64,000 bases of DNA. Source: Microbacterium sp. MYb62 (GTDB lineage Bacteria; Actinomycetota; Actinomycetes; Actinomycetales; Microbacteriaceae). The position numbers were made by a program, and so were the translations under genes. The DNA lies in the NCBI RefSeq assembly GCF_002979475.1, contig NZ_PCOY01000018.1:1-64000 (forward strand), in the 5' to 3' direction. Below are positions 3,908 to 20,506 of the stretch, one piece after another. A model generated the notes under the pieces. It saw only the letters and a program-made list of their open reading frames with translations, ran no database searches and was not told the origin of the DNA. Positions within the stretch are counted from its first letter, which is position 1. The number at the start of each line of letters is the position of its first letter.

Positions 3908-3932
3908 TCGTGCCCTCCGCTCAGCCGGCGGT

Positions 3933-5644: not shown

Positions 5645-7165
5645 TCACTCCCCCACGAGCTCGATGCGATGCCGGTCGGCGGCCGACGGGATCTCCTCCG
5701 TCGTCCGCGTCTCCCCGTGCGCGATGACGGAGACTGCCAGGCCCTGCACGCACGGACGCGGCACTCCCACCAGGCGCACCTCCACCCGCAGGTCCGCGCG
5801 CTCGCCGGAGATCCGCCAGCGCAGCTCGGCCTCGGTGGCGGCGGAGATCACCCGCTCTGCGAAGGGCTTCTGCCCGGGCCGCACGCCGCCGATCGTCGCG
5901 ACATGAGCGGCGAGTCGGGCGTCGCGGATACCCGGCGGCACGTCGTCGTGGACGTGAGCGGCCAGAGACGGGTACTCGGCGGAGGGGCGCCCCTGCAGGA
6001 TCGCGGTATCGATCGCCCGAGCCGCGGACACCGTCTCCGGCCACGGCTGCACCAGGGCCGAGGGCGCGTCGATGCGATCGAGCGCCTCGTGCAGCGCCGT
6101 GCCGGCCACGCGTCGTGCGCCGAACTCGTCGGAGTTCCCGAAGGCCACGACACCGACCCCTGTCGCCGTGTGCCAGCGCATGTGGGAGGAGAAGCCGGGC
6201 AGACCCCCGGAGTGCTGCACGATGCGCCCGAACCGCCGGTCCTCCTCCACGAAGAGTCCGTACCCGTAGCCGGCCCCTGCGAGGTCGCGGCCATCGAACA
6301 TCCCTGACGGCACGTCGATCGGCGTGCGGGGCTGCTGCATCTCGATCCGGGAGGAGGGGGCGAGCACGTGCGGGGCGAGCGGACGGTCGGTGAATGCCGA
6401 GCCGAGGAACCACATCCAGGTGGCGATGTCGTCCACGGTGCTGAACATGCTGCCGATGCATCCCAATGCCCCGGTTCTGACATAGGGCTCCGGGTGGAAG
6501 CTCGCACCGTCGTCGAACGTGCGGAACCCGCCGGCGAGACTCTCGTACGGGTAGCCGTCGGCCGAGTGAGCGGTCCTGGTCATTCCCAGCGGCTCGAGGA
6601 GCATCTCGCGCACCACGTCTTCGACAGCCCGGCCGGTGACGGCCTCGACCGCCGCGCCGAGCAGCGACTGTCCGAGGTTGGAGTACTGGTAGGTCGTTCC
6701 CGGCGCGGAGGAGAGCCGCACCCCGTCGGCGAACAGCGCGGCGATCTCCGCCCTGGACGCCCCCAGATTGCGGTCGGCCCAGGCGTTGTCCTCCCCGAGC
6801 CCCGAACGGTTGGAGAGCAGCAGGTCGCCGGTGAGCACGGCATCCGCCCCCCGGTGGCCGGCGCGTACGGCGGGGAGGTACGCGGTGATCGGGGCGTGGA
6901 GGTCGAAGTCGCCCCTGTCGCGCAGTGCCAGCACGGTGGCGGCGAGGAAGCTCTTCGACATCGATGCGATCCGGAAGACGGTGTCCCGGCCGGTCCTCGT
7001 GTCATCGCCTCGCGGGTGCCCGTCGGTGCGTACACCACGCACCTCGCCGCGCTCGCACACGGCGGCGATCGCGGCGGGCGCGCTGCGGCGGGCCCGGGCA
7101 TCCAGCCCGCGTGCGAGCACCTCCTCCGCCGTCGCCACGGTGATCCGGCGCGATCCTGCGCTCAT
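5645..7165 (-). CDS. Serine hydrolase, beta-lactamase/penicillin-binding-protein-like (class C fold)
   Basis: The 506-residue enzyme of the SxxK acyltransferase superfamily has nucleophile motif S68-M-S-K71 (FRIASMSKSF) and a YxN motif (YQYSNLGQS) near 160. The long C-terminal region has HSGGLPGFSS near 295, the usual position of the HxG-type third motif. Family members include D-aminopeptidases, DD-peptidases and esterases. With no signal peptide it is probably cytoplasmic, which fits hydrolysis of imported D-residue peptides better than a role in resistance. Start ATG 7165 overlaps the amidotransferase stop by 4 bp. Exact substrate unknown. The context favours a D-stereospecific peptidase. 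Confidence 0.88.
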   Translation of the reverse strand: MSAGSRRITVATAEEVLARGLDARARRSAPAAIAAVCERGEVRGVRTDGHPRGDDTRTGRDTVFRIASMSKSFLAATVLALRDRGDFDLHAPITAYLPAVRAGHRGADAVLTGDLLLSNRSGLGEDNAWADRNLGASRAEIAALFADGVRLSSAPGTTYQYSNLGQSLLGAAVEAVTGRAVEDVVREMLLEPLGMTRTAHSADGYPYESLAGGFRTFDDGASFHPEPYVRTGALGCIGSMFSTVDDIATWMWFLGSAFTDRPLAPHVLAPSSRIEMQQPRTPIDVPSGMFDGRDLAGAGYGYGLFVEEDRRFGRIVQHSGGLPGFSSHMRWHTATGVGVVAFGNSDEFGARRVAGTALHEALDRIDAPSALVQPWPETVSAARAIDTAILQGRPSAEYPSLAAHVHDDVPPGIRDARLAAHVATIGGVRPGQKPFAERVISAATEAELRWRISGERADLRVEVRLVGVPRPCVQGLAVSVIAHGETRTTEEIPSAADRHRIELVGE

Positions 7166-7875
7166 CCGCGATCCCCGACGAGGACCTCGTCCGCGAAGGC
7201 ATCGACGAGAGCGCGACTGACCTCCGTGTTGCGGACGTCCACGTCTTCCGCGGCACGGATGAGCTCCGCCAGTGATCGCCCCTCACCGCGCAGTGCCGCG
7301 TCATCCCAGCGCGCGAGATCGGCCGCCGACGCCTCGGGGTGGAACTGCACGCCACGCACGTGTCGGCCGAGCCGGAAGGCCTGATTCTCGATCGCGTCGC
7401 TGAAGGCCAGCAGTACGGCCTGCGGAGGCAGGCGCGTGATCATGTCCTGATGGTTCTCGATCATGGGGGCGCCATCGCCGAGCGTCGCGATCACCGCGTC
7501 CTCCCGCCCTGATGCGGTCGGATGGATGGGTGTCGCCCCGCGCTCGACGGGACCGGTCTTCGCCTTCACCTCTCCCCCCGCGACATGTGCGAGCACCTGG
7601 CCGCCCAGACAGATGCCGAGCGTCGGCAGATCGCGATCGATGGCCTCGGCGGCGAGCGCGCGCTCTGCCACTAGCCAGGGCGCGCGGTCGTCCTCATCCG
7701 GCATCAGACCGCCGCCGAGGAGCACCAGCCCGGCATAGCCTTCGAGAGTGGTCGGGATCTCCTGCTCCGCCCCGACGACCGCATCGACCGCGATGTCCCG
7801 CTCGACGAGCCAGGCCTCGAGGCGTCGCGGTCCCGAGCTCGCGGAGTTGACCACGACCAGCACGCGCGGGCTCAC
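7162..7875 (-). CDS. Class I glutamine amidotransferase-like protein
   Basis: A 237-residue single-domain protein of the GMP-synthase-glutaminase type. The nucleophile elbow GICLGGQ gives Cys89. The catalytic His and Glu are in VQFHPEAS (H179, E181), so the triad is complete. An oxyanion-type LLGGGLMPDED lies near 52-62. There is no synthetase partner domain, so it may hydrolyse gamma-glutamyl bonds rather than feed ammonia to an acceptor. In a peptide-salvage operon, gamma-linked glutamate of cell-wall peptides is an attractive but unproven substrate. Start is GTG 7875, chosen because GTGA overlaps the dipeptidase stop by 4 bp. Confidence 0.85.
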   Translation of the reverse strand: MSPRVLVVVNSASSGPRRLEAWLVERDIAVDAVVGAEQEIPTTLEGYAGLVLLGGGLMPDEDDRAPWLVAERALAAEAIDRDLPTLGICLGGQVLAHVAGGEVKAKTGPVERGATPIHPTASGREDAVIATLGDGAPMIENHQDMITRLPPQAVLLAFSDAIENQAFRLGRHVRGVQFHPEASAADLARWDDAALRGEGRSLAELIRAAEDVDVRNTEVSRALVDAFADEVLVGDRG

Positions 7876-8966
7876 AGTGCCCCCTCCCGTGTCGACGCAT
7901 CGACGGCGGGCACCAGCGCGGCGGCCGTGGGCGGCGCCGCGCGGCCGGCGAGGAAGGACTCGTGATCCCGATCCGAGGCCTCGAGGACCCGGAGCACGTT
8001 CTCGTGCGCGAGGGCGACGAGATCGGCCTCCGACCACTTCCGCGTCCGCAGCTCCGCGAAGAGCGCCGGGTAGCCGGCGACGTCGCCGAGGCCGTCCGGC
8101 ATCGGGTCGGCGCCGTCGAAATCCGCCCCGATGCCGACGGCGTGCGGTCCGGCCACTCGTCGAATGTGATCGAGGTGATCGGCGACGTCGCTCACGCCCA
8201 CCCGGGGCGCATCACCCTCACCGCCGGCGACCCACCAGTCGCGGCGCGCCTGCGAGACGAAGGTCGGCACGAAGGCGACCATCACGACACCCCCCTGAGC
8301 ACCGATCGCGGCGAGCACGTCGTCGGGGACGTTGCGCGGATGATCGCACAGGGCGAGCGCGCCGGAATGGCTGACCATCACGGGACGGGTCGTCTCCCGA
8401 AGGGCGTGACGCATGGTGTTCGGAGCCACATGGGCGAGATCGACGACGACCCCGATGCGGTTCATCTCCCGCACCACCTCGCGCCCGAACACGGAGAGGC
8501 CTCCATGACGCGCGTCGTCGGTGGCGGAGTCCGCCCAGCCGATCGTGCGCGACCAGGTGAGAGTCATGTATCGCGCACCCAGCCGGGCGTACTGCCGCAG
8601 CACGGCGAGCGAGCCTCCGATCTGATCACCGCCTTCGATGCCGATCAGCGAGGCGATCCGTCCCTCCCCCATCGCCGCGCGCACATCCGCTGCGGTCCGG
8701 GTGAAGGCGAAGCGTCCGGGATGCGCGTCGACCAGCCGGTGCACGAAGTCGATCTGCTCCAGGGTCCCCACGACCTGTTCGGCCCCCTGCAGCACGGGGT
8801 CGACCCACACCGACCAGAACTGTCCGCCCACCCCGCCGATCGCCAGCCGGGGAAGGTCGGTCTGCGTCGACGGCACGTCACCCGCGAGCCGGTCCACGTC
8901 GTAGCCGAGCAGCGACCTGCTCGCCCATGCCAGGTCGTTGTGTCCGTCGATCACCCTGTCGAGCAT
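7872..8966 (-). CDS. Membrane dipeptidase family enzyme (peptidase M19)
   Basis: A 364-residue zinc dipeptidase of the renal dipeptidase family (amidohydrolase TIM barrel). The metal-binding H9-N-D11 is in the opening DGHNDLAW, the bridging Glu is in LIGIEGGDQIGG near 120, and His residues are in VDLAHV and MVSHSGAL further on, so all expected metal ligands are present. M19 enzymes cleave dipeptides and commonly accept a D-residue at the C-terminal side, which matches neighbouring LD-carboxypeptidase and racemase genes. No signal peptide is seen, so a cytoplasmic site is likely. ATG 8966 follows AGGACGG. 18 bp after the aminotransferase stop. Confidence 0.93.
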   Translation of the reverse strand: MLDRVIDGHNDLAWASRSLLGYDVDRLAGDVPSTQTDLPRLAIGGVGGQFWSVWVDPVLQGAEQVVGTLEQIDFVHRLVDAHPGRFAFTRTAADVRAAMGEGRIASLIGIEGGDQIGGSLAVLRQYARLGARYMTLTWSRTIGWADSATDDARHGGLSVFGREVVREMNRIGVVVDLAHVAPNTMRHALRETTRPVMVSHSGALALCDHPRNVPDDVLAAIGAQGGVVMVAFVPTFVSQARRDWWVAGGEGDAPRVGVSDVADHLDHIRRVAGPHAVGIGADFDGADPMPDGLGDVAGYPALFAELRTRKWSEADLVALAHENVLRVLEASDRDHESFLAGRAAPPTAAALVPAVDASTREGAL

Positions 8967-8984: not shown

Positions 8985-9875
8985 TCAGTCCTCGCGTGCG
9001 TCCAGCACCGCGTTCATCCGCGCGGTCAGGGCATGGTCGATGAGCCGCTCCGCGCCGTCGAGCTGCCGCACCGGCACCGCGCCGCGCGTGCTGGAGCACA
9101 GCCACAGCGCATCCGCTCGTTCCAGATCGTCGCGCAGGAGCACGCCGATCCGCGTCGGGACGTCGGTGATCCCGGCGAACGCATCGGCCTGGGTCGTGCC
9201 GGGAAGGACGCCGAGTTCCGCAGGCGGTGTGACGAGCTCGCCGCCGATACGGGCGATCAGCGTCGAGCGCGGCCCCTCCAGCACGAAGCCGTCGCCGGTC
9301 ACGAACACGACGTCGTCCGCGCCGCGCCGCGCCGCTTCCCGGAGCGCCGCCTGATTCACCGCATAGGCGAGAGACTTCGCCCCCTGCAGCAGCCAGGGCG
9401 AGGTCTGCATCACGTCGTGCCGGTACCCGCGATCCAGCACGACGACGCGGATGCCGCTCATACGGACGGCGGAGGGGTCGCTGCCGGCGAACCCGAGCAC
9501 CCATCCGGTCGGTCCTGCGGCGTCGTACTCGTCGCCGCGGGTCATGACGAACTTGATCGACGCGATCTCCCCTTCCTCCAGCAGCCCGGGGGTCGATGCC
9601 GCCGCCGCAGCCCGGAGCACCGCCGTGCGCCACAGCTCGCGCCGGGGAGCCGGCAGCTCCATCAGTGCGGCCGAGCGCTCGAAACGCGTCAGATGGGCCT
9701 CGAGCGCCTGGGGCCTCCCGCCGCGGACGACCGCGGTCTCGAAGACGCCGTCGCCGCGGTTGACGCCGAGGTCCGTCGCTCGGATGATCGGCTCGCGGGG
9801 GTCGACCGGGTGGATGCTCCCCTCGAGAGGGGATGCCCCCGACAGGTCGAGGCGGAAGAGCAGCAGCGCACGCAT
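8985..9875 (-). CDS. Aminotransferase class IV (D-amino-acid transaminase or aminodeoxychorismate lyase-like)
   Basis: A 296-residue fold-type IV PLP enzyme. GDGVFETAVV at 41-50 is the family's N-terminal signature, Lys167 in LLQGAKSLAYAVNQ is the expected Schiff-base lysine, and VLEGPRSTL near 205 binds the cofactor phosphate. The AKSLAYAVN and GADDVVFV segments resemble actinobacterial PabC-type lyases as much as D-alanine transaminases, so the family cannot be settled by eye. In this operon a D-amino-acid transaminase role would fit. There is no pabA/pabB neighbour to support folate synthesis. Start ATG 9875, 25 bp after the racemase stop. Confidence 0.85.
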   Translation of the reverse strand: MRALLLFRLDLSGASPLEGSIHPVDPREPIIRATDLGVNRGDGVFETAVVRGGRPQALEAHLTRFERSAALMELPAPRRELWRTAVLRAAAAASTPGLLEEGEIASIKFVMTRGDEYDAAGPTGWVLGFAGSDPSAVRMSGIRVVVLDRGYRHDVMQTSPWLLQGAKSLAYAVNQAALREAARRGADDVVFVTGDGFVLEGPRSTLIARIGGELVTPPAELGVLPGTTQADAFAGITDVPTRIGVLLRDDLERADALWLCSSTRGAVPVRQLDGAERLIDHALTARMNAVLDARED

Positions 9876-9900: not shown

Positions 9901-11049
9901 TCAGCCACGCGTGAACGCGGCGTCTCGGACGGCGACGTCGGCGGAATCATAGGTGCGGGAAGCTCCCCGTTCGATCCGCTCGACCAGGACGTCGTGGCCG
10001 ATACCCGGTCCGTGTGGAACCTGCACCCGCCCCTCCACCGCGGTGACGGCCGGGGCGACGATGTCGTCGACGTAGTACTTGTCGGAACCGGAGACATCCG
10101 ACGGGAGGAGGAACCCGGGCAGCGCCGAGATGGCGACGTTCGCCGCACGACCGACGCCGAACTCGTGCATGCCCCCGCACCAGACGGGGATACCCGCCTC
10201 GACGGCGAGGTCGTGAGCCGCCTTCGCTACCGTGAGCCCTCCCATGCGCGACACCTTGATGTTGAGGATGCGCCCGGCCCGGAGCCGGATCATCGTGCGC
10301 AGGTCGCCGAGCGCGACGACCGACTCATCCAGGCACACGGCGGTTCCGATCCGGGCCTGGAGCGCCGCGTGCGCGACCAGCTCCCGCGGCGCGAACGGCT
10401 GCTCGATCATCGTCAGGCCCTGGGTGTCGAGCTGCGCGAACACGGCCGCGGAATCGTCGTCATCGGGGTAGGCCCCGTTCGCATCCACGTGGAGGTCGAG
10501 GTCGGGATGCGCGTCCCGCACCGCCCGCACCGGCTCCACATCCCACCCCGGGGCGATCTTGAGCTTCACGCGGGGATAGCCCGCGGCACGCTGAAGCTCC
10601 ACCTGGCTGAGAAGCTCGTCGATCGACGGCTCGATTCCGAGCGAGACCCCGGCCACGACCTCGTCGCGGGTTCCGCCGAGCGCCGTAGCGAGGGCAATGC
10701 CCCGGCGCCGGGAGAAGAGGTCCCACACGGCACCGGAGAAACCTGCTCTGGCGAACTCGTGTCCGCGCACACGCGCCCAGGTCGCCTCCAGTTCAGCGGG
10801 CTCGTCACCCTCCGCACCGAGGAGGGCGGGAACGAGATACCGGGTGGCGATGTCCCACGCCGTCGCCGTGGTCTCTGCCCCGAAATACGGGTCGCTGGGT
10901 GTGGCGATCTCGCCCCAGCCGCACCGCCCGTCCTCGTCGGTGACCTCGACGAGGAGATGCTCGATCCCCGATTTGCGATGCGAGCTGGTCTCGAAGCTGT
11001 GCCGCAACTCCTGACGCAGCGCGAACAGCCGGACCCGGGTGACCCTCAC
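9901..11049 (-). CDS. Enolase-superfamily OSBS / N-succinylamino-acid racemase
   Basis: A 382-residue muconate-lactonising subgroup enzyme. Catalytic lysines are K162/K164 (VKLKI) and K265 (NIKVSRMGG). Metal ligands are D189 (HVDANGAY), E216 (MIEQP) and D241 (LDESV). The barrel end reads CGGMHEFGVGRAAN, the signature of o-succinylbenzoate synthase / N-succinylamino-acid racemase rather than of dipeptide epimerases. No menaquinone genes are near. Instead a GNAT acyltransferase and an M20 hydrolase flank it, the context described for N-succinylamino-acid racemase in the D- to L-amino acid pathway. The racemase role is therefore the better guess; a bifunctional OSBS/NSAR remains possible. GTG 11049 overlaps the preceding stop by 4 bp. 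Confidence 0.88.
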   Translation of the reverse strand: MRVTRVRLFALRQELRHSFETSSHRKSGIEHLLVEVTDEDGRCGWGEIATPSDPYFGAETTATAWDIATRYLVPALLGAEGDEPAELEATWARVRGHEFARAGFSGAVWDLFSRRRGIALATALGGTRDEVVAGVSLGIEPSIDELLSQVELQRAAGYPRVKLKIAPGWDVEPVRAVRDAHPDLDLHVDANGAYPDDDDSAAVFAQLDTQGLTMIEQPFAPRELVAHAALQARIGTAVCLDESVVALGDLRTMIRLRAGRILNIKVSRMGGLTVAKAAHDLAVEAGIPVWCGGMHEFGVGRAANVAISALPGFLLPSDVSGSDKYYVDDIVAPAVTAVEGRVQVPHGPGIGHDVLVERIERGASRTYDSADVAVRDAAFTRG

Positions 11050-11735
11050 GTCTCCGCCTGCCCCTCGACATCGGGCCGCGACGGATCCGAGCTGTAGAGA
11101 CCGAGCCGCGCGACGAGTCGGTCTCGCTCGGCCAGCCGACGGCGGGCGCCCTTCGCACTCGCGGTCGTCAGCGCACTCAGCAGGTGGCAGACGGCGGCGA
11201 CCGGCGTCGGCGAATCCGCATAGGACGCCGATCCCGTACGCACGCGGATCAGGGATGTCGCGAGCGGTGCGAGCGGAGCATCCTCACTGTCGGTGATCAC
11301 CACGAGCTGACCACCCGCCTCGCGGAACAGCCGACCGAGTCGCACCGTCTCCTCCCGATAGCGCCGGAGCGAGAAGGCGATGAGCACATCCGAGGCCCGG
11401 ACATCGGTGAGCACGGTCAGCGGCTGCAGCGCGTGCCCGTCGACGAGGAAGACGTTGGACAGCGTCGCGGACAGGTCGGCGTTCAGCAGCTGCGCATACG
11501 CTGCGGCCTTGCCCTCGCCCGCGACGTAGCGGCGCCGCGCGCCCAGCAGCAGCGCCGCGGCCTGCGGAACCTGAGCCGAGGCGCTCAGTTCCTCGAAGGT
11601 GAGGGCGAGCGTGCGCAGCTCCGTCTCGATGATGCGCGCCTGGATGCTCTCCGCCGAGAGATTCGTGCGGATGCGCTCGCCGAAGCGGTCGCGCGGCGAG
11701 ACGAGCTCGCGATCCTCGTGCTGCTGGTCGCTCAT
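11046..11735 (-). CDS. RpiR-like SIS-domain protein lacking the helix-turn-helix
   Basis: The 229-residue protein matches the linker and SIS (sugar isomerase) half of MurR/RpiR regulators: an opening helical segment (RIRTNLSAESIQARIIETELRTL is split here by position 20-45), then the SIS fold with ASDVLIAFSLRRYREETVRL near 115-135 and LVVITDSEDAPLAPLA near 148. RpiR proteins are usually about 280 residues with an N-terminal HTH of about 75. None is present, and the ATG at 11735 overlaps the GNAT stop by 4 bp, leaving no room. It may sense a ligand for another regulator or act on a substrate itself. Confident on the fold, unsure of function. Confidence 0.75.
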   Translation of the reverse strand: MSDQQHEDRELVSPRDRFGERIRTNLSAESIQARIIETELRTLALTFEELSASAQVPQAAALLLGARRRYVAGEGKAAAYAQLLNADLSATLSNVFLVDGHALQPLTVLTDVRASDVLIAFSLRRYREETVRLGRLFREAGGQLVVITDSEDAPLAPLATSLIRVRTGSASYADSPTPVAAVCHLLSALTTASAKGARRRLAERDRLVARLGLYSSDPSRPDVEGQAET

Positions 11736-12517
11736 GCGGTGACCTTCCCTGATGTCGCGCGGTAGACCGCGGTGTGCTCGTCGATGCGCGAGGCCGCCAC
11801 CAGCACGTCGCCCCTTCGGAAGACGTCTGTCATGGCGCCTTCCAGCCGGCGTCTCAGCGCCGAGCGCTCGCTCGCATCGAGCTCCTCCTGGCGGGCGGGG
11901 ATCGCGATCCAGTCGGCGTCGTGGGCGCGCACGACACGCCCCCAATCCCCCCTGCCGAGCGGCGGCGGCGAGGGACGGTCCGATCGTGGCGCACCGGATC
12001 CGGCCTCGACCAGATTCCACGAGACCACGAGTCGGTCGGTGTCCGGCCGGGCGTAGTAGTCGCGTTCGTACGCGATGCCGACCGCGCCGAGCGAGCTGAG
12101 ATTGAAGTGCGCGTTCCGTGACAGCAGCGGATCGAAAGTCCAGCGCATGGATTGCTGTCCCCACCGGAGGGCGACGTCGCGTTGGGCGAGCTTGAGCGCC
12201 TGCCCCACCCCGCGCCCCTGCTGTGCGGCATCCACCGCGGCCGCCTGCGAATAGTGGAAGTGGGCTCCGCTCGCATCACAGCCCGCGAAGCCGTATGCGA
12301 AGCCGATGAGCCCGCCGTCATCCGTGAACGCCCCGATGGCGGAGCCCCCGTTCCGCGCGAGGGCTGTGAGGAGATTCGCGTTGAGGGCATACTCCTGCTC
12401 GGTGTACGCGAAGACCCGTGCATAGAGCGCCGCAGCCTCGCGGAACTCGGTGTACTGGGTCAGTTCGCGGCAGTCGTAGCCGACGCCCGCGTCGGCGGCC
12501 ACCGAAGAATGAGGCAC
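11732..12517 (-). CDS. GNAT-family acyltransferase, candidate N-succinyltransferase for D-amino acids
   Basis: A 261-residue GNAT-like protein. The acyl-CoA pyrophosphate loop is QQGRGVGQALK near 98-108, preceded by a FHYSQAAAVDAA strand, and followed by RWTFDPLLSRNAHFNLSSLG, a block typical of the COG3375-type predicted acetyltransferases. Enzymes of this type adjacent to N-succinylamino-acid racemase have been described as succinyl-CoA:D-amino acid succinyltransferases (Geobacillus work). That role is transferred by context only. First gene of the leftward operon. GTG at 12517 has AGGAAA about 7 nt upstream on the reverse strand. Confidence 0.83.
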   Translation of the reverse strand: MPHSSVAADAGVGYDCRELTQYTEFREAAALYARVFAYTEQEYALNANLLTALARNGGSAIGAFTDDGGLIGFAYGFAGCDASGAHFHYSQAAAVDAAQQGRGVGQALKLAQRDVALRWGQQSMRWTFDPLLSRNAHFNLSSLGAVGIAYERDYYARPDTDRLVVSWNLVEAGSGAPRSDRPSPPPLGRGDWGRVVRAHDADWIAIPARQEELDASERSALRRRLEGAMTDVFRRGDVLVAASRIDEHTAVYRATSGKVTA

Positions 12518-12559
12518 GATACGTTTCCTAAGATCGAACGAGATATGCGGCTGGGAGCG

Positions 12560-12588
12560 ATGTTATCGGCGGGTTGCACGCCAATCAA
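12560..12588 (-). promoter_or_regulatory. Promoter of the leftward peptide/D-amino-acid operon
   Basis: On the reverse strand TTGATT (12583-12588) and TAACAT (12560-12565) are separated by 17 bp. Transcription would begin near 12553, giving a leader of about 35 nt with an AGGAAA ribosome site before the GTG at 12517. It overlaps the divergent promoter on the other strand, so the two should be mutually exclusive or jointly controlled. Confidence 0.5.
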
Positions 12589-12602
12589 GAGGCAGATACG
12601 GT
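12574..12602 (+). promoter_or_regulatory. Promoter of the rightward operon (leaderless M20 start)
   Basis: TTGCAC (12574-12579) and TACGGT (12597-12602) are spaced by 17 bp. The GTG of the M20 gene follows 8 nt after the -10, so the transcript is probably leaderless. The -35 falls inside the spacer of the opposite-strand promoter. Confidence 0.45.
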
Positions 12603-12610
12603 TCGTAACT

Positions 12611-13759
12611 GTGACCACTTTCGCGGCAGCTCCCGGAGCGGACCACTCTTCAGACGACATCATCGCACTCGTGCGCGAACTCGTGGCGTTGGAGACACCG
12701 ACCCACGACACCGTGGCGAGCCGCGCGATCGCCGTTCTCCTCACCGACTGGTTCGAGGGCGTCGGCGGCACGGTGACACAGGTGCCCACCGCGGCCGGGA
12801 CAGACCTCGTCATCGACGTCGCCGGCTCCGGGGATCCGTACCTCCTCATCGGTCACACCGACACCGTCTGGCCGACGGGAACCCTCGGAGGCGCCCTGCC
12901 CTGGTCCCACCACGGCGACGTCGTGCGCGGACCCGGCGCCTACGACATGAAAGCCGGGATCGTGGTGATGCTCGAGGCGCTGCGACGGCTCCAGGCCGTT
13001 CCTCCCGAACGCCGCAGGGCGGTGCGCGTCGTCCTGGTCGCCGATGAGGAGGTCGGCTCGCCCGAATCCGGGCCACTGCTCGCCGACCGGGCTCGCGGCG
13101 CCGCGGCCGCCATCGGTTTCGAGTCGCCGCACCCGGACGGCGCCCTCAAGGTCGGACGCCGTGGCAGCGCGCGGGTCGAGATCGCCGCGACCGGTCGCGC
13201 GGCCCATGCCGCACTCGACCCGGAGCACGGCGTGTCCGCTGTGGACGAGCTCGTCGATCAGCTGATGCGCGTCCGCGAGATCGTCGCAGACCCCGGCCTG
13301 CCGGGCCCCGTGCTGTGCAATGTCGGGACGGTCTCGGGCGGAGCGCGCGCGAACGTGATCCCCGCCCACGCACGGGCCGAGATCGGCCTCCGCTTCACGG
13401 ATGCGGGCACCGAAGAACGGGTGATGGGCGCGCTCGCCGCGCTGCAGCCGATCCGCCCCGGCGCAGAGATCGCCGTGGAAGTGCTCAGCGCCCGCCCGGC
13501 CTGGGAGGCGTCCACGCAGGACGCCGCCCTCGTCGAGCGCATCGCGCGGACGGCCGCAGCCATCGGGCAGCATGTCGACGCACGCCCGGCGGCCGGCGCG
13601 GGCGACACCAACCTGCTGGGTGCCCTCGGACTGCCGACGGTCGACGGCTTCGGACCCCGTGGCGGCGGCGCGCATGCGGTGGACGAGCATTTCCTGTTTT
13701 CCTCCCTCGCAGAGCGCATCGAGCTCCTGCGTGCCGTGCTGACCATCCCCGCGGAGTGA
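12611..13759 (+). CDS. M20 family amidohydrolase/peptidase (candidate N-succinyl-L-amino acid desuccinylase)
   Basis: A 382-residue zinc enzyme of the ArgE/DapE/CPG2 family. The first metal motif is GHTDTVW (H82, D84), the bridging Asp is D112 in GAYDMKAG, the catalytic Glu pair is in DEEVGS (E146/E147), and a late His in GGGAHAVDE binds zinc. The carboxypeptidase-G2 class removes acyl or glutamyl groups. Beside a GNAT enzyme and an OSBS/NSAR racemase it is well placed to deacylate N-succinyl-L-amino acids. The start is taken as GTG 12611. An in-frame ATG at 12560 would add a stretch with untypical codons that overlaps the promoters. Confidence 0.88.
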   Translation: MTTFAAAPGADHSSDDIIALVRELVALETPTHDTVASRAIAVLLTDWFEGVGGTVTQVPTAAGTDLVIDVAGSGDPYLLIGHTDTVWPTGTLGGALPWSHHGDVVRGPGAYDMKAGIVVMLEALRRLQAVPPERRRAVRVVLVADEEVGSPESGPLLADRARGAAAAIGFESPHPDGALKVGRRGSARVEIAATGRAAHAALDPEHGVSAVDELVDQLMRVREIVADPGLPGPVLCNVGTVSGGARANVIPAHARAEIGLRFTDAGTEERVMGALAALQPIRPGAEIAVEVLSARPAWEASTQDAALVERIARTAAAIGQHVDARPAAGAGDTNLLGALGLPTVDGFGPRGGGAHAVDEHFLFSSLAERIELLRAVLTIPAE

Positions 13760-14046
13760 GGATACGATTCCCGTTCGCACACTGAGGGGCGATGCGAGGG
13801 ATACGTTCCGGATCTCCGACCGAACGATCCCGGTCCGCCCTCGTCGCACACGGCGGGCGCATCCTTTCATCCGCATGTTTCCGGACTGTTACGCCCAGAA
13901 CTCAGCGAGTGTCGACACGCCGGCGTGCGAAATTTCTTCCACGATACGCAACGAATCCCTTGACCCCGAGGCAGACTTCCGCTTGCATGGTCTCCACCGA
14001 CCCGGCTTCATCGTGGATCCGGGCGGCGCCCGAAGGGACTTCTTCT
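13760..14046 (+). other. 287-bp intergenic leader before the second peptide transporter operon
   Basis: No gene fits here. It contains GATACG-type hexamers at 13762-13772 and 13800-13809 (TACGAT and TACGTT resemble -10 elements), a 10-bp perfect palindrome GTGTCGACAC at 13909-13918, and TTGACC at 13960-13965 with a weak TTGCAT 17 bp later. The binding-protein gene may therefore have its own regulated promoter as well as read-through from the M20 gene. Confidence 0.4.
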
Positions 14047-15879
14047 ATGCGTCTTGCCACCCGCTCCAGAACAGCACGAAGTCTGACCGCCGCTGCGATC
14101 GCCTCCGCGCTCCTCATCGCCGCTCCGGTCGGCGCCGCCCAGGCTCAGACCGTCAGCGCGACGACCGAATCGCCGGCCGCCGACACCACGCTGCGCATCG
14201 CGACCTCCGGCTTCGTCGACACCTTCAACCCGTTCATCTCGATCTATCTGACGCCGACGAACATCATCCGGTACGTCTACGAATCGCTCGTCCAGAACGA
14301 CGCCGAGGACGGCTCCCCCACCCAGGGCCTCGCCGACTCCTGGAAAGCCAGCGACGGCGGCCAGACCTGGACCTTCACCCTGCAGGATGACCTCACATGG
14401 TCGGACGGCGAGCCGATCACCTCGGCCGATGTGAAGTACACCTACGACCAGATGATGACGGTGCCGGCGCTCGGCACGGCGAACGGGAACCTCGTCTCCA
14501 ACTTCGACACGGTGGAGACCCCCGACGACAAGACCGTGGTGATCTCGCTCAAGACCCCGCAGGCGCCCAACCCCGGCTCCGAGATCCCCATCGTCCCCCA
14601 GCACATCTGGGAAGCGGTCGACGACCCCACGACCTTCGCGAACGACTCCGAGGTCGTCGGCTCCGGACCGTTCGTCCTCGACAGCTACTCGGCCAACCAG
14701 TCGATCGTGCTCAAGGCGAACGAGAACTTCTGGCGCGGAGCTCCGAAGATCGATGCGATCCAGTACGTGTACTACACGAACTCGGACGCGCAGGTGCAGG
14801 CGCTCAAGGCCGGTGACGTCGACCTGGTCTCCGGCCTCACCCCGACCCAGTTCGATGCGCTCGACGGCGTCGAAGGCATCACGACCCACTCCGGTGTCGG
14901 TCGCCGATACCACTCCATCAGCATCAACCTGGGCCAGCAGACCCGCGACAACGTGCCCTACGGCACCGGCAACGCGGCGCTGAAGGACATCGAGGTCCGC
15001 CAGGCGATCCGTCTCGGCACCGACACGAAGACCCTGCTCGACAAGGTCCTCGCCGGAGAGGGCGTGCAGGCCACGAGCTTCATCCCCGCCTCCTTCCCGA
15101 AGTGGCACCTCTCCGACGACGACGACGTGATCGTCGGATTCGACCCCGAGACCGCGAAGACGAAGCTCGACGACGCCGGATGGGTGCCTGCGGCCGACGG
15201 CATCAGAGAGAAGGACGGACAGCGTCTGAGTCTGCGACTGCTGACGGACGCCGACGACTCCAACGAGCAGTCCATCGCCGAGTTCTTCGTTCCGTGGATG
15301 AAGGACATCGGGATCGAGATCGCCGTCGAGTCGACCGACTCGGACACGATCAGCGCGAAGGCCACGTCCGGCGACTACGACCTGTACTTCAGCGGATGGT
15401 CGGTCAACCCCGACCCGGACTACCAGCTCGGGATCAACACCTGCATGAACCTGCCGACGGCGACCGACGGCACCGGCGGCACCACGCAGGACGGCTACTG
15501 CAGCCCCGAGTTCGACGAGATGTACGCGCAGCAGCGCTCGGAGATCGACGAGGAGAAGCGCCAGGCCATCGTCCACGACATGCTCGCGCTGAACTACACC
15601 GACACCGCACAGGTCGCCACCTGGTATGCCAACTCCCTCGAGGCCTACCGGTCGGACCGCTTCACCGGTTTCACCCTGCAGCCCAAGGATGGCGGCATCA
15701 TCGCGAACCAGGCCGGCTACTGGGGCTACCTCACGGTGGAACCCGTCGAGGGTGCGACCGCCGGTGGCACCGGCACGAACACCGGGCTCATCATCGGAGG
15801 CATCGTGGTGGGAGTCGTCCTCGTCGGAGGACTGGTCTTCTTCCTGATCCGTCGTCGGAACATCGCCGACGTCGAATGA
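14047..15879 (+). CDS. Peptide ABC transporter substrate-binding protein with C-terminal membrane anchor
   Basis: Receptor of the second transporter, 610 residues. An Sec-type signal peptide (basic MRLATRSRTAR, hydrophobic core, cleavage likely after AQA at 33) has no lipobox cysteine. The SBP family 5 body follows (WTFTLQDDLTWSDGEPITSADVKY is spread over residues 100-125; VRQAIRLGTDTKTLLDKV near 320). At the C-terminus a Gly-rich linker leads to one transmembrane helix at about 577-600 and a basic RRRN tail, so the protein is anchored by its C-terminus, unlike the lipoprotein of the other transporter. Start ATG 14047 follows an AAGGGA-type site; upstream in-frame starts would precede the signal peptide. 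Confidence 0.92.
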   Translation: MRLATRSRTARSLTAAAIASALLIAAPVGAAQAQTVSATTESPAADTTLRIATSGFVDTFNPFISIYLTPTNIIRYVYESLVQNDAEDGSPTQGLADSWKASDGGQTWTFTLQDDLTWSDGEPITSADVKYTYDQMMTVPALGTANGNLVSNFDTVETPDDKTVVISLKTPQAPNPGSEIPIVPQHIWEAVDDPTTFANDSEVVGSGPFVLDSYSANQSIVLKANENFWRGAPKIDAIQYVYYTNSDAQVQALKAGDVDLVSGLTPTQFDALDGVEGITTHSGVGRRYHSISINLGQQTRDNVPYGTGNAALKDIEVRQAIRLGTDTKTLLDKVLAGEGVQATSFIPASFPKWHLSDDDDVIVGFDPETAKTKLDDAGWVPAADGIREKDGQRLSLRLLTDADDSNEQSIAEFFVPWMKDIGIEIAVESTDSDTISAKATSGDYDLYFSGWSVNPDPDYQLGINTCMNLPTATDGTGGTTQDGYCSPEFDEMYAQQRSEIDEEKRQAIVHDMLALNYTDTAQVATWYANSLEAYRSDRFTGFTLQPKDGGIIANQAGYWGYLTVEPVEGATAGGTGTNTGLIIGGIVVGVVLVGGLVFFLIRRRNIADVE

Positions 15880-15950: not shown

Positions 15951-16994
15951 ATGTCGAACGCGGTTCCCCCGTCCACATCCGCCATCGCCACCAGCGCCGC
16001 AGCCGAGGAGCAGCCGAGGGGCCTCGGCGGCCTCCGCTACTTCCTGGTCAAGCTGGGCGGCGCGGCCATCAGCATGGCGATGGTGATCCTCCTGGGATTC
16101 TTCGCCTTCAAGATCCTGCCGGGAGACCCCGTCGCATCGATCGCGCGCGAGCGCGGCATGAGTGCCGAACAGGTGGCGCAGCTGCGCGAGCAGCTCGGCC
16201 TGGACAAGCCGCTCTGGCAGCAGTTCTTCGACTACCTCGGCAACGTCTTCACCTTGAACTTCGGCACGAGCTACGTGTACCGCACGTCGGTCTCCGAGCT
16301 CATCGGCCAGTACTTCTGGAACACGATCCTCCTCACCGGCACGGCGGCGATCATCGCGATCGCCCTCGGACTCTGGCTCGGACAGAAGGCCGCGTGGAAG
16401 CACGGCTCCACCTTCGACCGCATCGTCTCCGGCACCTCGCTCGTGTTCTGGTCGGTGCCGACGTTCTGGCTCGCCCTGCTGCTGCTGATGATCTTCGGCG
16501 GCACGCTGCACTGGTTCCCCACCGGCGGCATGGTCTCCCCCAACCCGCCCACCGACCCCGTCGGTGCCGTTCTCGACGTGATCTCGCACATGGTCCTGCC
16601 CGTGGTCACGATGGTCGCCGTCGTCTATGCGCAATACCTGATGGTGATGCGCAGCTCCCTCCTCGAGGAGATGGGCGCCGACTACCTCACGACCGCCCGC
16701 GCGAAGGGACTGCGGGAGGATCTCGTGCGCCGTCGCCATGCCGTCCCCAACGCGCTGCTCCCGACCGTCACGCTCGTCTTCATGCACATCGGCGGACTGA
16801 TCGCCGGGGCCGTGACCGTGGAGACCGTGTTCTCCTGGCCCGGGCTGGGCAAGCTCACCTTCGAGGCCATCTCCGGCCCCGACCTCCCCCTCCTGCAGGG
16901 CACCTTCGTCGTGTTCTCGACGATCATCATCGTGATGAATCTCATCGCGGACCTCATCTACCGTCAGCTCGACCCGAGGGTGAGGCGCGCATGA
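15951..16994 (+). CDS. Peptide ABC transporter permease (DppB type)
   Basis: A 347-residue membrane subunit. A poorly conserved, Ala/Ser-rich N-terminal extension of about 35 residues precedes the first helix. FKILPGDPVASIARERG and LREQLGLDKPLWQQF are DppB family blocks. The coupling loop YLTTARAKGLREDLVRRRH is near 245-265, and the end LIYRQLDPRVRRA is typical. The ATG at 15951 has an excellent AAGGAG site 5-6 nt upstream. The stop overlaps the next permease start by 4 bp. Confidence 0.94.
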   Translation: MSNAVPPSTSAIATSAAAEEQPRGLGGLRYFLVKLGGAAISMAMVILLGFFAFKILPGDPVASIARERGMSAEQVAQLREQLGLDKPLWQQFFDYLGNVFTLNFGTSYVYRTSVSELIGQYFWNTILLTGTAAIIAIALGLWLGQKAAWKHGSTFDRIVSGTSLVFWSVPTFWLALLLLMIFGGTLHWFPTGGMVSPNPPTDPVGAVLDVISHMVLPVVTMVAVVYAQYLMVMRSSLLEEMGADYLTTARAKGLREDLVRRRHAVPNALLPTVTLVFMHIGGLIAGAVTVETVFSWPGLGKLTFEAISGPDLPLLQGTFVVFSTIIIVMNLIADLIYRQLDPRVRRA

Positions 16995-17905
16995 GCACGG
17001 CATCCACAACCATCCGATCGCCCCGCGCACTGGCCTGGCACCGTCGTGGTGCAGCCTTCGCCGACTTCTGCCGCCAGTTCGCACATCACCGCGCGGGCAT
17101 GGTCGGCCTGGTCTTCCTGATCATCGTGGCGGCGGTGGCGATCCTCGCGCCGGTGATCGCCCCGTCGAGCATGCTCGACGTCACCAAGCTCGTGGATCCG
17201 GAGCCCTTCGCCCCACCCTCGTGGCAGCATCCGCTCGGCACCGACCAGCAGGGTCGCGAGATCTGGGTCCGCATGGTGTGGGGAGCACGCGTCTCCCTCC
17301 TCGTGGGCCTCGCGGCCACCGCGATGTCGATGATCATCGGCACCTTGGTCGGGCTCTCCGCCGGGCACTTCACCGGCTTGTTCGGCGGCCTGATGATGCG
17401 CATCATCGACTTCTTCCTGGTGCTGCCCTCGCTCATCCTCGCGATCGTGCTCTCCTCCGTGCTCAGCCGCGGTGTCTGGACGATCGTCATCGCGATCGGT
17501 CTCACCTCGTGGGCGGGAACGGCTCGCGTGGTCCGTGCACAGACGCTGTCGGTCGAGTCGCGCGACTACATCGAGCGCTCTCGGGCCCTCGGCGCCGGCC
17601 ATTGGCACATCATCATCAAGCATCTGCTGCCCGGCGTGCTGCCCCTGGTACTCGCCAACACGACCCTCACCGTGGGGTCGGCGATCATCTCCGAGTCCAC
17701 GCTGGCGTTCCTCGGACTCGGCGACACCACGATGCAGTCCTGGGGATCGATCCTGAAGAACGCGATGGACGTCTCCGCGGCGACCAGCGGCTACTGGTGG
17801 TACGTCCTCGTGCCCGGTGTCGCGATCGTCCTGGTCGTGCTGTCGTTCACCCTGATGGGGCGCGCCGTCGAGAACATCACCAACCCGACGCTGAGGAGCC
17901 GGTGA
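16991..17905 (+). CDS. Peptide ABC transporter permease (DppC type)
   Basis: A 304-residue partner permease. The N-terminal cytoplasmic arm and first helix are followed by HPLGTDQQGREIWVRMVWGA, the DppC block. The coupling loop YIERSRALGAGHWHIIIKHL sits near 190-210, and STLAFLGLGDTTMQSWG follows. ATG at 16991 overlaps the previous TGA (ATGA), and the ATPase ATG follows 1 bp after the stop, so the three genes are coupled. Confidence 0.94.
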   Translation: MSTASTTIRSPRALAWHRRGAAFADFCRQFAHHRAGMVGLVFLIIVAAVAILAPVIAPSSMLDVTKLVDPEPFAPPSWQHPLGTDQQGREIWVRMVWGARVSLLVGLAATAMSMIIGTLVGLSAGHFTGLFGGLMMRIIDFFLVLPSLILAIVLSSVLSRGVWTIVIAIGLTSWAGTARVVRAQTLSVESRDYIERSRALGAGHWHIIIKHLLPGVLPLVLANTTLTVGSAIISESTLAFLGLGDTTMQSWGSILKNAMDVSAATSGYWWYVLVPGVAIVLVVLSFTLMGRAVENITNPTLRSR

Positions 17906-17906: not shown

Positions 17907-19556
17907 ATGCCCGATCTGATCTTCGACGACGTCTCGATCACGTACCGCACCGCCGGGCGCGCCGGCCGAGACGAGGTCGCCGCCGTCCGCAACGTCTCGC
18001 TGACACTGCCCGCCGGCGAGACGCTCGGCATCGCCGGCGAATCCGGTTCCGGCAAGTCGACCCTGGCCATGAGCGTGCTGAGACTGCTGCCGCACAACGC
18101 CCGTCTGAGCGGCCGCGTGCTGCTGGGCGACCAGGACGTCGCGAAGCTCTCCTTCGGCCAGCTCCGCGCGGTCCGCTGGGCACAGACCTCGATCGTCTTC
18201 CAGGGGGCGATGCACTCGCTGAACCCGGTGCGCACCGTGGGCTGGCAGCTGCTCGAGGCACTGGAACTGCATGCGACCGATCGCTGGAAGACCGAGAAAG
18301 CCCGCACGCAGCGCATGAGGGAGCTGCTGGAGGTCGTCGACCTCGCCGAGCAGAAAGCCGAGTCGTACCCGCACGAGCTCTCGGGCGGCCAGAAGCAGCG
18401 GGTCATGATCGCGATGGCGCTGGCGTGCGATCCCGAGGTCATCATCGCCGATGAGCCGACCACCGCTCTCGACGTCATCGTGCAGAAGCAGATCCTCGAC
18501 ATGATCTCTCGTCTCGTCTCGGAACGCGGCATCTCGATGCTGATGATCAGCCACGACCTGTCGGTCCTCGCGACGGCGTGCCGGCGCATCGCCATCATGC
18601 GCGACGGCGAGCTCGTCGAGGTCGGTGAGAGCTACGCCGTCTGCACCAGCCCGACGCAGGACTACACCCGTCAGTTGGCGGACGCCTTCCCCACGATCGG
18701 CGATCCGGCATCACGCCTGGCACCGGTCACCCGCCATGGGCGCGGTGCCGAGGAGGTGCCCGACTTCGCCCACGGGGACGAGGTGCTGTTGGAGGCCCGC
18801 GGCGTCAACGTGACCTACCGCTCGGGCAGTCGTCCCGTGCACGCCGTGCGCGATGTCGACCTCACCGTGCGACGGGGCGAGATCGTCGCACTGGTGGGCC
18901 AGTCCGGGTCAGGGAAGTCGACGCTCGCGCGGGCGCTCATGGGCCTGCAGCCCGCCGACCCCGGCTCCCGGATCCTGTTCGACGGGGCGCCGATGCCCAC
19001 CAAGGGCCGCGACCTCGCCCACTTCCGTTCGCAGGTGCAGCTCGTGCTCCAGGACCCCTGGGCAGCGCTCAACCCGAAGCACAGCGTGTACGAGTCGGTC
19101 GCCGAGGGACTGCGGGTGCAGCGCTACACCGGCGACGAACGCGCACGCGTCGCCCAGAGCCTCACCGACGCGGAGATGACGCCGCCGGAGACGTTCTTCA
19201 GCGCCATCCCGCAGGAGCTCAGCGGAGGCCAGCGGCAGCGCGTGGTGATCGCCGGTGCTCTCGCCGTGCAACCGCAGATGCTCATCGCCGACGAACCGGT
19301 CGCCTCACTCGACGCGTCGGTGCGGGGAGAGATCCTCGGTCTGATGCTCGACCTGCGTCGAAGGCTCGGGCTGTCCGCACTCGTGATCACGCACGACCTG
19401 GGACTCGCCTGGAACATCGCCCACAGCGTCGCCGTGATGTACCGCGGGGAGATCGTCGAACGCGGAACCACCGAGGAGGTCCTGTTGAACCCGCAGCACG
19501 ACTACACCAAGCATCTGCTCTCGGCCGCTCCGCGCATCGAGGAGCGGACGGCATGA
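17907..19556 (+). CDS. Peptide ABC transporter, fused double ATP-binding protein
   Basis: A 549-residue protein with two ABC ATPase domains. Domain 1 has GESGSGKS near 48-55, LSGGQKQR near 155 and VIIADEPTTALD. Domain 2 has GQSGSGKS near 332, LSGGQRQR and MLIADEPVASLD. Each domain ends in an SHD switch, and domain 1 carries the oligopeptide-type tail QDYTRQL. It is a paralogue of the fused ATPase at the left end of the cluster, but sequence details differ enough to suggest two separate transporters rather than a recent duplication. Its stop overlaps the LD-carboxypeptidase start by 4 bp. Confidence 0.94.
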   Translation: MPDLIFDDVSITYRTAGRAGRDEVAAVRNVSLTLPAGETLGIAGESGSGKSTLAMSVLRLLPHNARLSGRVLLGDQDVAKLSFGQLRAVRWAQTSIVFQGAMHSLNPVRTVGWQLLEALELHATDRWKTEKARTQRMRELLEVVDLAEQKAESYPHELSGGQKQRVMIAMALACDPEVIIADEPTTALDVIVQKQILDMISRLVSERGISMLMISHDLSVLATACRRIAIMRDGELVEVGESYAVCTSPTQDYTRQLADAFPTIGDPASRLAPVTRHGRGAEEVPDFAHGDEVLLEARGVNVTYRSGSRPVHAVRDVDLTVRRGEIVALVGQSGSGKSTLARALMGLQPADPGSRILFDGAPMPTKGRDLAHFRSQVQLVLQDPWAALNPKHSVYESVAEGLRVQRYTGDERARVAQSLTDAEMTPPETFFSAIPQELSGGQRQRVVIAGALAVQPQMLIADEPVASLDASVRGEILGLMLDLRRRLGLSALVITHDLGLAWNIAHSVAVMYRGEIVERGTTEEVLLNPQHDYTKHLLSAAPRIEERTA

Positions 19557-20506
19557 CCGGCACGTCCTCGCCCTACCTCGACTCCCCTCCGCTGCAACCG
19601 GGAGATACGGTCGCGATCGTCTCCCCGGCCGGACCGGGGAACGAGGAGAATACGCAGCGGGCGGTCGACTACTACGAGTCGTGGGGTCTGCAGGTGCGGG
19701 TGGGCGAGCACGTGCTCACTCCGCATCCACGCGCCTCCTACCTCGCGGGGCCCGACGATCTGCGCCGTTCCGACTTCGTGGAGGCGTGGATGGACCCGGA
19801 CGTGGACGCCGTCGTGGCCGCACGTGGCGGGTACGGGGCGCTGCGCCTGCTCGACGGCATCGATTGGGCGCAGATGCGCCGCGGAGCGCGGCGACGCGAC
19901 GGACGTCCGAAGCTCCTCACCGGATCCTCCGACGTCACCGCGCTGCACGAGACGGTGCGCGCGCATCTGGGCGTGGCCACGCTGTTCTGCCCCATGGCGG
20001 GCAACAACGTCTTCCGCGACTCCGAGCAGGTGCGCGATGACGTGCAGCGGTGGCTCTTCGAGCCCTGGCGAGGACGCGAGCTGATCGGCCCGAAGACCGA
20101 GGTGATGGCCAGGGGGCGCGCGGTCGGGCGCTTCACAGGAGGCAACCTGAGCCTGCTCGCCGCCGGGCTCGGCGCCCCGGAATCCGCGGTTCCGGCGCCC
20201 GGCATCCTGTTCCTCGAGGACATCACCGAGGAGCCCTACCGGCTCGACGGCTTCGTGACCCAGCTGCGCAGGGCGGGACGGCTGGCACAGGCGAGCGGGA
20301 TCGTGCTCGGTTCCTGGCACGAATGCGGCGACCTCGAGCTCGTCCACGCCCTGATGCGCGACGAGTTCCAGGACGCCGGGGTCCCCGTCCTGTGGGAACA
20401 GGGTTTCGGACACGACCCGCACGCCCTCACGATCCCCCTCGGCGTCGACGGCATCCTCGATGCGACATCCGACGAGCCGCGGCTCACGGTCGGAGCACCC
20501 GCATGA
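19553..20506 (+). CDS. LD-carboxypeptidase (peptidase S66, LdcA-like)
   Basis: A 317-residue serine peptidase that in its family removes the terminal D-Ala from muropeptide tetrapeptides or related L,D bonds. The Ser-Glu-His triad is visible: nucleophile S126 in LLTGSSDVTALH, E222 in LFLEDITEEPYRLD, and H287 in GFGHDPHALTIPLG. The N-terminal half ends with the conserved ARGGYGALRLLDGID. No signal peptide, so cytoplasmic action on imported peptides is likely. It is coupled to the ATPase by an ATGA overlap and to the following hydrolase by another. It is the strongest single clue that the cluster handles cell-wall-type peptides; S66 also includes microcin-immunity enzymes (MccF). Confidence 0.92.
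   Translation: MTGTSSPYLDSPPLQPGDTVAIVSPAGPGNEENTQRAVDYYESWGLQVRVGEHVLTPHPRASYLAGPDDLRRSDFVEAWMDPDVDAVVAARGGYGALRLLDGIDWAQMRRGARRRDGRPKLLTGSSDVTALHETVRAHLGVATLFCPMAGNNVFRDSEQVRDDVQRWLFEPWRGRELIGPKTEVMARGRAVGRFTGGNLSLLAAGLGAPESAVPAPGILFLEDITEEPYRLDGFVTQLRRAGRLAQASGIVLGSWHECGDLELVHALMRDEFQDAGVPVLWEQGFGHDPHALTIPLGVDGILDATSDEPRLTVGAPA

Follow-up and report, generated by a model that had tools for sequence, protein, structure and literature searches.

What does an enolase-superfamily enzyme of the o-succinylbenzoate synthase/N-succinylamino-acid racemase (OSBS/NSAR) family do among genes for peptide transport and peptide hydrolysis? The question is raised by a 64,000-nucleotide stretch of Microbacterium sp. 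MYb62 (contig NZ_PCOY01000018.1, positions 1 to 64,000; hereafter the window), in which a sequence-only reading had noticed a racemase gene with the barrel end GGMHEFGVGRA, flanked by genes for a GNAT enzyme and an M20 hydrolase, and had proposed an irreversible D- to L-amino acid pathway. The barrel end and the three genes were found where that reading had placed them: the racemase at 9901-11049 on the minus strand, a GNAT acyltransferase with a GTG start, a candidate D-amino-acid N-acyl(succinyl)transferase, at 11732-12517 on the minus strand, and an M20 metallohydrolase of carboxypeptidase-G2 type, a candidate N-acyl-L-amino-acid hydrolase, at 12611-13759 on the plus strand. The trio had been drawn without a fourth gene, which lies between racemase and GNAT (11046-11735, minus strand) and encodes a SIS-domain protein of the RpiR/MurR type without N-terminal helix-turn-helix (HTH), a candidate regulator. 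The M20 gene is indeed divergent from the GNAT gene, and what had been described as two divergent promoters is a single shared intergenic region of 93 bp between the start codons at 12517 and 12611. The trio very probably serves as a D-to-L inversion module akin to that of Geobacillus, in a variant form that is new, and we consider it likely that it is built into a co-regulated peptide-salvage regulon.

The arrangement was compared across 80 loci, the best 80 of 288 encoding a relative; the choice deliberately samples the clade to which the window belongs, and several of the contigs are short. A GNAT gene was found upstream of the racemase, on the same strand and within 2.5 kb, in 78 of the 80 loci, the SIS gene immediately preceded that of the racemase in 65, and a divergent M20 gene lay beyond the GNAT gene in 65. 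The two loci without GNAT were L034 and L086, the latter having less than 1 kb of upstream sequence. A control set of 20 menC loci of about equal size (400 kb in total) contained none of the racemase-trio genes and none of the genes for the SIS protein, M19 dipeptidase, class-I glutamine-amidotransferase-like protein (GATase), S12 hydrolase, S66 carboxypeptidase or D-aminoacylase-like enzyme (0/20), while the ATP-binding cassette (ABC) ATPase query, from a common family, was found in two control loci. M20/GNAT-SIS-racemase is a real conserved unit across Actinomycetota.

The closest solved structures to the racemase by sequence were N-acylamino-acid racemase/OSBS chains (1sja, 263 bits, E 3.5e-77), and the protein was 90% identical to the M. 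oxydans racemase. Residues K163, D189, E214, D239, K263 and R266 (Amycolatopsis numbering) were identical in all 119 rows of the racemase alignment (114 distinct sequences, five genes having been reached twice), comprising 92 rows of the window's clade (87 distinct) and 27 others; they include Lys163 and Lys263, the metal ligands and Arg266, which a racemase of the Geobacillus-type pathway should have. The 92 clade rows carried the signature GGMHE[F/Y]G, which puts His at Amycolatopsis position 293, together with Phe (91 rows) or Tyr (one row) at position 295 and Ser at 315 in every row. The other 27 rows, which include the Amycolatopsis NSAR, the D. radiodurans MP1 protein, Bacillota proteins and both paralogues encoded in the same genome, had Leu, Ile or Val at 293, Thr, Ala or Ser at 295 and Gly at 315. 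In a 64-row tree, which was midpoint rooted and had a bootstrap that was not fully settled, the His clade was set apart from the other rows (38 versus 26) by a branch supported at 100/100. By sequence no solved structure fell inside the His clade, the best PDB match being the one at 263 bits. The earlier placement in the OSBS/NSAR family holds, catalytic residues included, and the enzyme is in a distinct clade, separate from the characterised NSARs and without a characterised enzyme in the sample compared. Position 293 is reported to have been mutated in Amycolatopsis variants, so that His at this position may alter substrate choice.

Taken alone the GNAT protein remained below the Pfam cut-offs, and PF00583 was matched by 31 of 34 aligned relatives at E values up to 0.1. 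Its predicted model has a GNAT fold (predicted local distance difference test, pLDDT, 91.7) and superimposed on NatA with a Z score of 16.6 and a root-mean-square deviation (rmsd) of 2.1 over 152 residues. The best fold matches were N-terminal-amine acetyltransferases, which say nothing firm on substrate, and a profile search of the PDB gave weak matches only (best E 0.0013), none indicating a substrate. Relatives from the same GNAT family were located beside an NSAR gene, or one to two genes away from it, in Lysinibacillus, Priestia, Deinococcus, Arthrobacter and Streptomyces plasmids. The M20 protein, which matched PF01546/PF07687, has a GTG start and an uncertain N-terminus; its best PDB relative was carboxypeptidase G2 (1cg2, E 2.6e-29). 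The motifs HTD, YDMKAG, DEE, FESP and GGGAH, which we take to provide the metal ligands, are all there. Its best NCBIfam models, matched below cut-off, were common to both paralogous trios in the genome and to the Arthrobacter and Streptomyces trios.

The two paralogous trios are complete, and their racemases are 43-45% identical to that of the window. One of them (L130; contig 45, 17000-30000) consists of M20, GNAT and racemase followed by a PucR-type regulator assigned by Pfam, and in the other (L131; contig 34, 105500-120000) an ABC ATPase and an S9/S12 fusion precede M20, GNAT and racemase, with a similar regulator, as judged by eye, after them. The fusion protein joins an S9 prolyl-oligopeptidase to an S12 hydrolase in 1110 residues. 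Two observations on trios of other genomes are added here. On an Arthrobacter plasmid (L137, 4924-6078) a trio-adjacent M19 dipeptidase gene is split by a stop into two open reading frames and may be a decaying partner. A sequence labelled as a Stenotrophomonas rhizophila plasmid (L138, CP031730.1) has the gene order of the Lysinibacillus plasmid L134, common to both being putP, hflX, M20, GNAT, menC and a siderophore ABC transporter, and is possibly mislabelled or contaminated.

An N-succinylamino-acid racemase pathway of Geobacillus kaustophilus was reportedly described by Sakai et al. in 2006. According to PMC8762209, a GNAT-related enzyme that makes N-acetyl- and N-succinyl-D-Phe, -Tyr and -Trp has been described in Geobacillus. 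The window resembles this pathway in having GNAT, OSBS/NSAR racemase and M20 side by side, with the NSAR catalytic residues kept. Unlike it, the window has a racemase of a separate clade with His293, an extra gene for an HTH-less SIS protein, and a divergent layout whose operator-like site is shared with an operon for a peptide transporter and an LD-carboxypeptidase; the genome, moreover, has three trios, and the carboxypeptidase-G2 type of the M20 is probably a further difference. The likeness to the Geobacillus trio on which the sequence-only reading relied is thus upheld for composition, catalytic residues and the occurrence of the same GNAT family near Bacillota and Deinococcus NSARs, and does not extend to the clade and pocket of the racemase, nor, to judge from the Lysinibacillus and Priestia trios, to the type of M20.

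The operator-like site is a 15-bp palindrome with the consensus GATAYGNNNCRTATC, found in the strongly conserved M20/GNAT intergenic region of close relatives. Sites were scored against the 12 defined consensus bases, and those with at least 11/12 were called strong. L034 and L086, in which no GNAT was found, were excluded from GNAT-promoter counts (n = 78); 48 of the remaining loci had a strong site within -250 to +20 of the GNAT gene, where the remaining sequence of these loci predicted 0.30, and the 20 control loci (400 kb) had none. Because the motif was read from GNAT promoters this enrichment is partly circular, and the sites before transporter, class-IV aminotransferase and SIS genes played no part in defining it. 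All 80 loci together contained 73 strong sites, 51 of them, in 49 loci, no more than 400 bp upstream of GNAT, including one at -305 in L099. Of the other 22, 21 likewise lay at most 400 bp upstream of a gene of the system, 18 of them before the gene for the transporter binding protein SBP2, two before a class-IV aminotransferase gene (in L074 and L079 the detached gene is preceded by a strong site) and one before a SIS gene (L096 has a 12/12 site before its relocated SIS gene); the last, in L041, is unexplained. The window has three putative operators, each 11/12 by motif scan: GATACGGTTCGTAAC at 12595-12609 in the M20/GNAT divergent promoter, GATACGTTCCGGATC at 13800-13814 upstream of the SBP2 transporter operon, and GATACGCAACGAATC at 13943-13957, with 89 bp separating it from the start of SBP2 (14047).

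A narrower pattern, GWTAYGNAMCRTATC with at most one mismatch, gave five matches in the whole 4.15-Mb genome, three of which are in the window, and the reversed control pattern gave one. The other two near-sites, on contigs 12 and 14, may be chance occurrences, being situated, as judged by eye, within a phosphatase/phospholipase-like frame and at the start of a deaminase-like gene. Sites with 10/12 form a frequent background, with 122 of them in 1.48 Mb outside GNAT promoters; perfect palindromes at 10/12 or better numbered nine in 1.56 Mb outside GNAT promoters, seven of them before SBP2, and one in the 400 kb of control sequence. A scan of 12480-14100 for sigma-70 promoters and terminators found nothing. 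Since the sites are common to the M20/GNAT promoter and the transporter/LD-carboxypeptidase operon, the inversion module, the peptide transporter and the LD-carboxypeptidase look like one regulon in which the site would have the regulatory role, and the link to a peptide salvage operon that had been proposed from the gene order gains a second footing. We also observed the perfect palindrome GATCCGNNNCGGATC (10/12) before SBP2 in six loci (L031 at 7130, L035 at 6084, L037 at 6731, L038 at 6124, L042 at 6090 and L050 at 6072), in five of which it also precedes a divergent C39-like peptidase gene; it is perhaps a variant of the operator.

The SIS protein matched PF01380 with 49.9 bits (cut-off 25), and neither Pfam nor the predicted model showed an N-terminal HTH (PF01418) in it, while the positive control, a Priestia RpiR, matched HTH_6. 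The model (pLDDT 86.5) superimposed on RpiR 3sho with Z 22.4 and rmsd 6.6 over 181 residues and on MurR 7en7 with Z 20.5 and rmsd 3.8 over 177 residues; its residues 27-211 match RpiR/MurR residues about 94-280, so that the HTH part is lacking. Upstream of the SIS start, several relatives have a frame that closes within 0-49 codons and leaves no room for an RpiR HTH, for which the HTH_6 model has a length of 77. The frame in the window is open for 180 codons over the GNAT gene, and we therefore infer the start there. One possible reading of L089 has 63 extra N-terminal residues (280 residues in all) that by eye resemble a worn HTH, with no Pfam hit. The protein thus shares with MurR/RpiR factors the SIS domain, at Z 20-22 to MurR and the Sphaerobacter RpiR, and differs from them in having, instead of the N-terminal HTH, a conserved basic C-terminal helix (SAKGARRRLAERD) and an N-terminal SPxxRFGxR motif. 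A complete RpiR, with both HTH and SIS, is encoded next to the Priestia trio.

Homologues of the SIS protein (E 1e-20 or better) occur in 23 of 394 genomes of the class. In two Leifsonia genomes the gene is at the end of an SBP2-Opp-ATPase-S66 operon; it directly follows S66 in L199, L200 and L201, where no NSAR was found in the 19 kb covered, and it overlaps the GNAT gene in L020-L022. A strong site was present in 48 of the 63 GNAT promoters with an adjacent SIS gene and in none of the 15 without (Fisher 3.6e-8). Within Nesterenkonia, two loci with the SIS gene have the site and eight without it have none above 9/12. The weak 10/12 sites of L036, L037 and L096 stand without an adjacent SIS gene, and those three genomes have one elsewhere. 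One of the eight Nesterenkonia genomes just mentioned (L186) has an unlinked SIS-only gene about 9 kb from the perfect palindrome TATACGTTTCGTATA (10/12), which precedes a transporter binding-protein gene. The neighbours of that SIS gene are, by eye, an amidohydrolase gene, an Asp/Glu/hydantoin-racemase-like gene and an amino-acid ABC transporter. A further set of loci speaks against a link between SIS protein and site. The GNAT promoter lacks an 11/12 site in 15 of the 63 loci with an adjacent SIS gene; L031, L039 and L046, which carry the SIS gene, are without a site down to 10/12; an 11/12 site is likewise absent from L197 and L202, where SIS and NSAR occur together, and L202 lacks one at 10/12 as well. 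The five SIS loci with no NSAR nearby are divided, with 11/12 in L200, 10/12 in L186 and L198, and none in L199 and L201. After correction for relatedness there were four independent contrasts, about three in the same direction and about zero opposite (sign test p 0.125-1), and with only four the corrected test cannot reach significance.

Direct operator binding by the SIS protein is possible. In its fullest form, which we put forward tentatively and regard as doubtful, the proposal is that the HTH-less protein binds GATAYGNNNCRTATC by another surface, senses a ligand derived from the cell wall or from D-amino acids, and controls both the uptake of D-residue peptides and the new GGMHE[F/Y]G racemase clade, with its differing substrate. 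We are rather inclined to think that a classical regulator encoded elsewhere binds the palindrome, and that the SIS protein acts as a sugar-phosphate isomerase or else as a co-sensor that makes no contact with DNA. This agrees with the missing HTH, with the lack of significance over four contrasts and with L199 and L201, which carry the SIS gene and no site at 10/12; it leaves unexplained why strong sites are confined to GNAT promoters with an adjacent SIS gene (48/63 against 0/15) and why the site follows the SIS gene when this is relocated (12/12 in L096, the 10/12 perfect palindrome in L186). A further point against a classical regulator is that a Pfam scan of 12 proteins of the window cluster found no HTH in any of them.

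The operon behind the two upstream sites is read on the plus strand and begins with SBP2 (14047-15879), the substrate-binding protein of an oligopeptide-type ABC transporter, named by eye, with a signal-peptide-like start (MRLATRSRTARSLTAAAIAS) and conserved in 28 of the 80 loci. Two ABC permeases (15951-16994 and 16991-17905) and a double ABC ATPase (17907-19556), also named by eye, are followed by an S66 LD-carboxypeptidase (19553-20506; PF02016/PF17676) and two class-A beta-lactamase-like serine hydrolases (20503-22149; PF13354). The first of these two hydrolase genes (20503-21340) is apparently in two frames, with a switch near 21000 that could be a real frameshift or a sequencing error. 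An S58 (DmpA-type) peptidase gene at 22168-23325, on the strand opposite to the S66 and beta-lactamase-like genes and with a relative in five of the 80 loci, closes the cluster. On the other side of the racemase, all on the minus strand, are a class-IV aminotransferase of PabC or D-amino-acid transaminase type (8985-9875; PF01063), an M19 (renal-type) dipeptidase (7872-8966; PF01244, 1.9e-103), a GATase (7162-7875; PF00117, present in 32 of 80 loci), an S12 serine hydrolase of the beta-lactamase family (5645-7165; PF00144), whose matches to the AmpH and D-aminopeptidase NCBIfam models were below cut-off, and a further oligopeptide ABC transporter named by eye (646-5546), with ATPases, two permeases and a binding protein at 3933-5546. 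The two types of class-IV aminotransferase could not be told apart, as NF005888 gave 250 bits for this protein and 255 for a copy on contig 51, neither over the cut-off.

Renal-type M19 enzymes that cleave L,D-dipeptides are known. Over the 80 loci M19 was found in 32, S66 in 24, S12 in 30 and a C39-like peptidase in 13. An amidohydrolase resembling N-acyl-D-amino-acid deacylases (PF07969; NF006560 below cut-off), for which we assume the name D-aminoacylase, was near the module in 11 (L046, L067, L068, L072, L073, L077, L083, L090, L093, L096 and L099). The partner hydrolases vary by lineage, and all belong to peptidase or D-aminoacylase-like families. The deacylase-like enzyme and a D-acylating GNAT could form a futile pair unless the former has L,D-dipeptides or imported N-acyl-D-amino acids as its substrates.

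From this setting we infer D-amino acid substrates, a direction of reaction and a ligand for the regulon. Oligopeptide ABC transporters would import short peptides with D-residues, most likely derived from the cell wall, and the S66 LD-carboxypeptidase, the M19 dipeptidase and the S12 and beta-lactamase-type serine hydrolases would release amino acids from them. The GNAT enzyme would then acylate the alpha-amine of the D-amino acids from an acyl-coenzyme A, succinyl-coenzyme A by analogy; the racemase, using its Lys/Lys pair, would convert N-acyl-D and N-acyl-L forms into one another, and deacylation of the L form by the M20 hydrolase would draw the reaction to L. The palindrome in the M20/GNAT promoter and before the transporter operon would switch the set together, with the SIS protein sensing a ligand and controlling the set directly or through a partner.

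Several findings weigh against this proposal. The racemase is over the cut-off of the curated OSBS model TIGR01928 (275 bits, cut-off 200.65); the altered pocket (His293, Phe/Tyr295, Ser315) means that the substrate may differ from the known N-succinyl amino acids; the Lysinibacillus and Priestia trios, the two Bacillota trios compared, have a TIGR01891-type amidohydrolase as M20, unlike the carboxypeptidase-G2 type here; and M19, GATase and S12 are each absent from the majority of the 80 loci, short contigs among them, so that the core probably works without them. As many as 38 of the 80 have neither M19 nor a D-aminoacylase-like gene, for which reason both look accessory to the module. The TIGR01928 score would agree with a second menC that has unrelated neighbours, as would the fact that NSARs are often promiscuous OSBS enzymes. 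We regard this as hardly credible: the score to the actinobacterial menC model NF002782 is 50 bits (cut-off 288), and a GNAT gene accompanies the racemase almost throughout (78/80). No men genes were seen among the scanned neighbours of the racemase, as the sequence-only reading had noted, and the case that it had set against itself, an OSBS in a genome with no other menC, is not the one found here, as a dedicated menC lies on contig 17 (NF002782, 476 bits) and menD on contig 20; the racemase is therefore not needed for menaquinone. A menC of the NF002782 type is over cut-off in 58 of 60 family genomes, this one included. Of 199 family genomes, only 50 have NSAR relatives at E 1e-50 or better.

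Very improbable, too, is an L-Ala-D/L-Glu dipeptide epimerase acting directly on murein peptides, as in ykf/YcjG clusters. A peptide transporter, an LD-carboxypeptidase and a dipeptidase are the surroundings in which one would be expected, but the epimerase models NF041118 (58.9 bits, cut-off 500) and NF011708 (54.4 bits, cut-off 343) were matched far below cut-off, NSAR/OSBS chains scored 263 bits against 81 for the best named epimerase chain, and the GNAT and M20 genes would be left unexplained. A less distant alternative keeps the module and changes its acyl group or substrate, for example to an N-acetyl pathway for a single D-amino acid, D-Glu or D-ornithine, in place of a broad N-succinyl one. 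The precedent is DgcN-DgcA, a D-glutamate pathway (PMC10845958), in which likewise a D-amino acid is acylated before an enolase-superfamily racemase acts; the N-acetyl chemistry of DgcA is taken from the name of its NCBIfam model. The clade-specific pocket residues, the full support for a separate clade and three divergent trios in one genome, which suggest a division of substrates, would all suit such a change, as would D-ornithine, reported (PMC10757982) from the cell wall of Microbacterium cluster V, to which M. oxydans and M. algeriense belong. We nevertheless hold it to be rather unlikely, given that the racemase family differs from that of DgcA (90.4 bits against NF042940, the N-acetyl-D-Glu racemase model, cut-off 400) and that the closest characterised relatives are NSARs.

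An inversion module of the Geobacillus kind within a peptide-salvage regulon, the reading that we prefer, is best set beside the murein-peptide systems that epimerise the dipeptide itself, the Bacillus subtilis dpp-ykf operon and E. coli YcjG. These likewise combine an enolase-superfamily epimerase or racemase with a peptide ABC transporter and an S66 LD-carboxypeptidase in one unit, and the window would differ from them in that free D-amino acids are acylated first. What appears to be new is the racemase clade of its own, the different M20, the HTH-less SIS partner and a regulon apparently including peptide uptake; among the papers listed by searches of an open-access library, no title or opening lines of an abstract dealt with this actinobacterial cluster or with an HTH-less SIS regulator. 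With a shared operator, simple reporters suffice to test the function, and a genome with three trios is a natural set for finding the determinants of NSAR substrate choice. The HTH-less SIS protein, provided that it binds the site, would be an unusual transcription factor. If the proposal is true, the name 'o-succinylbenzoate synthase' given by a curated model to a whole gene clade would be corrected, and actinobacteria would have a second route for reusing cell-wall D-amino acids, in which the peptide is cut first and the residue inverted through an N-acyl intermediate, replacing dipeptide epimerisation.

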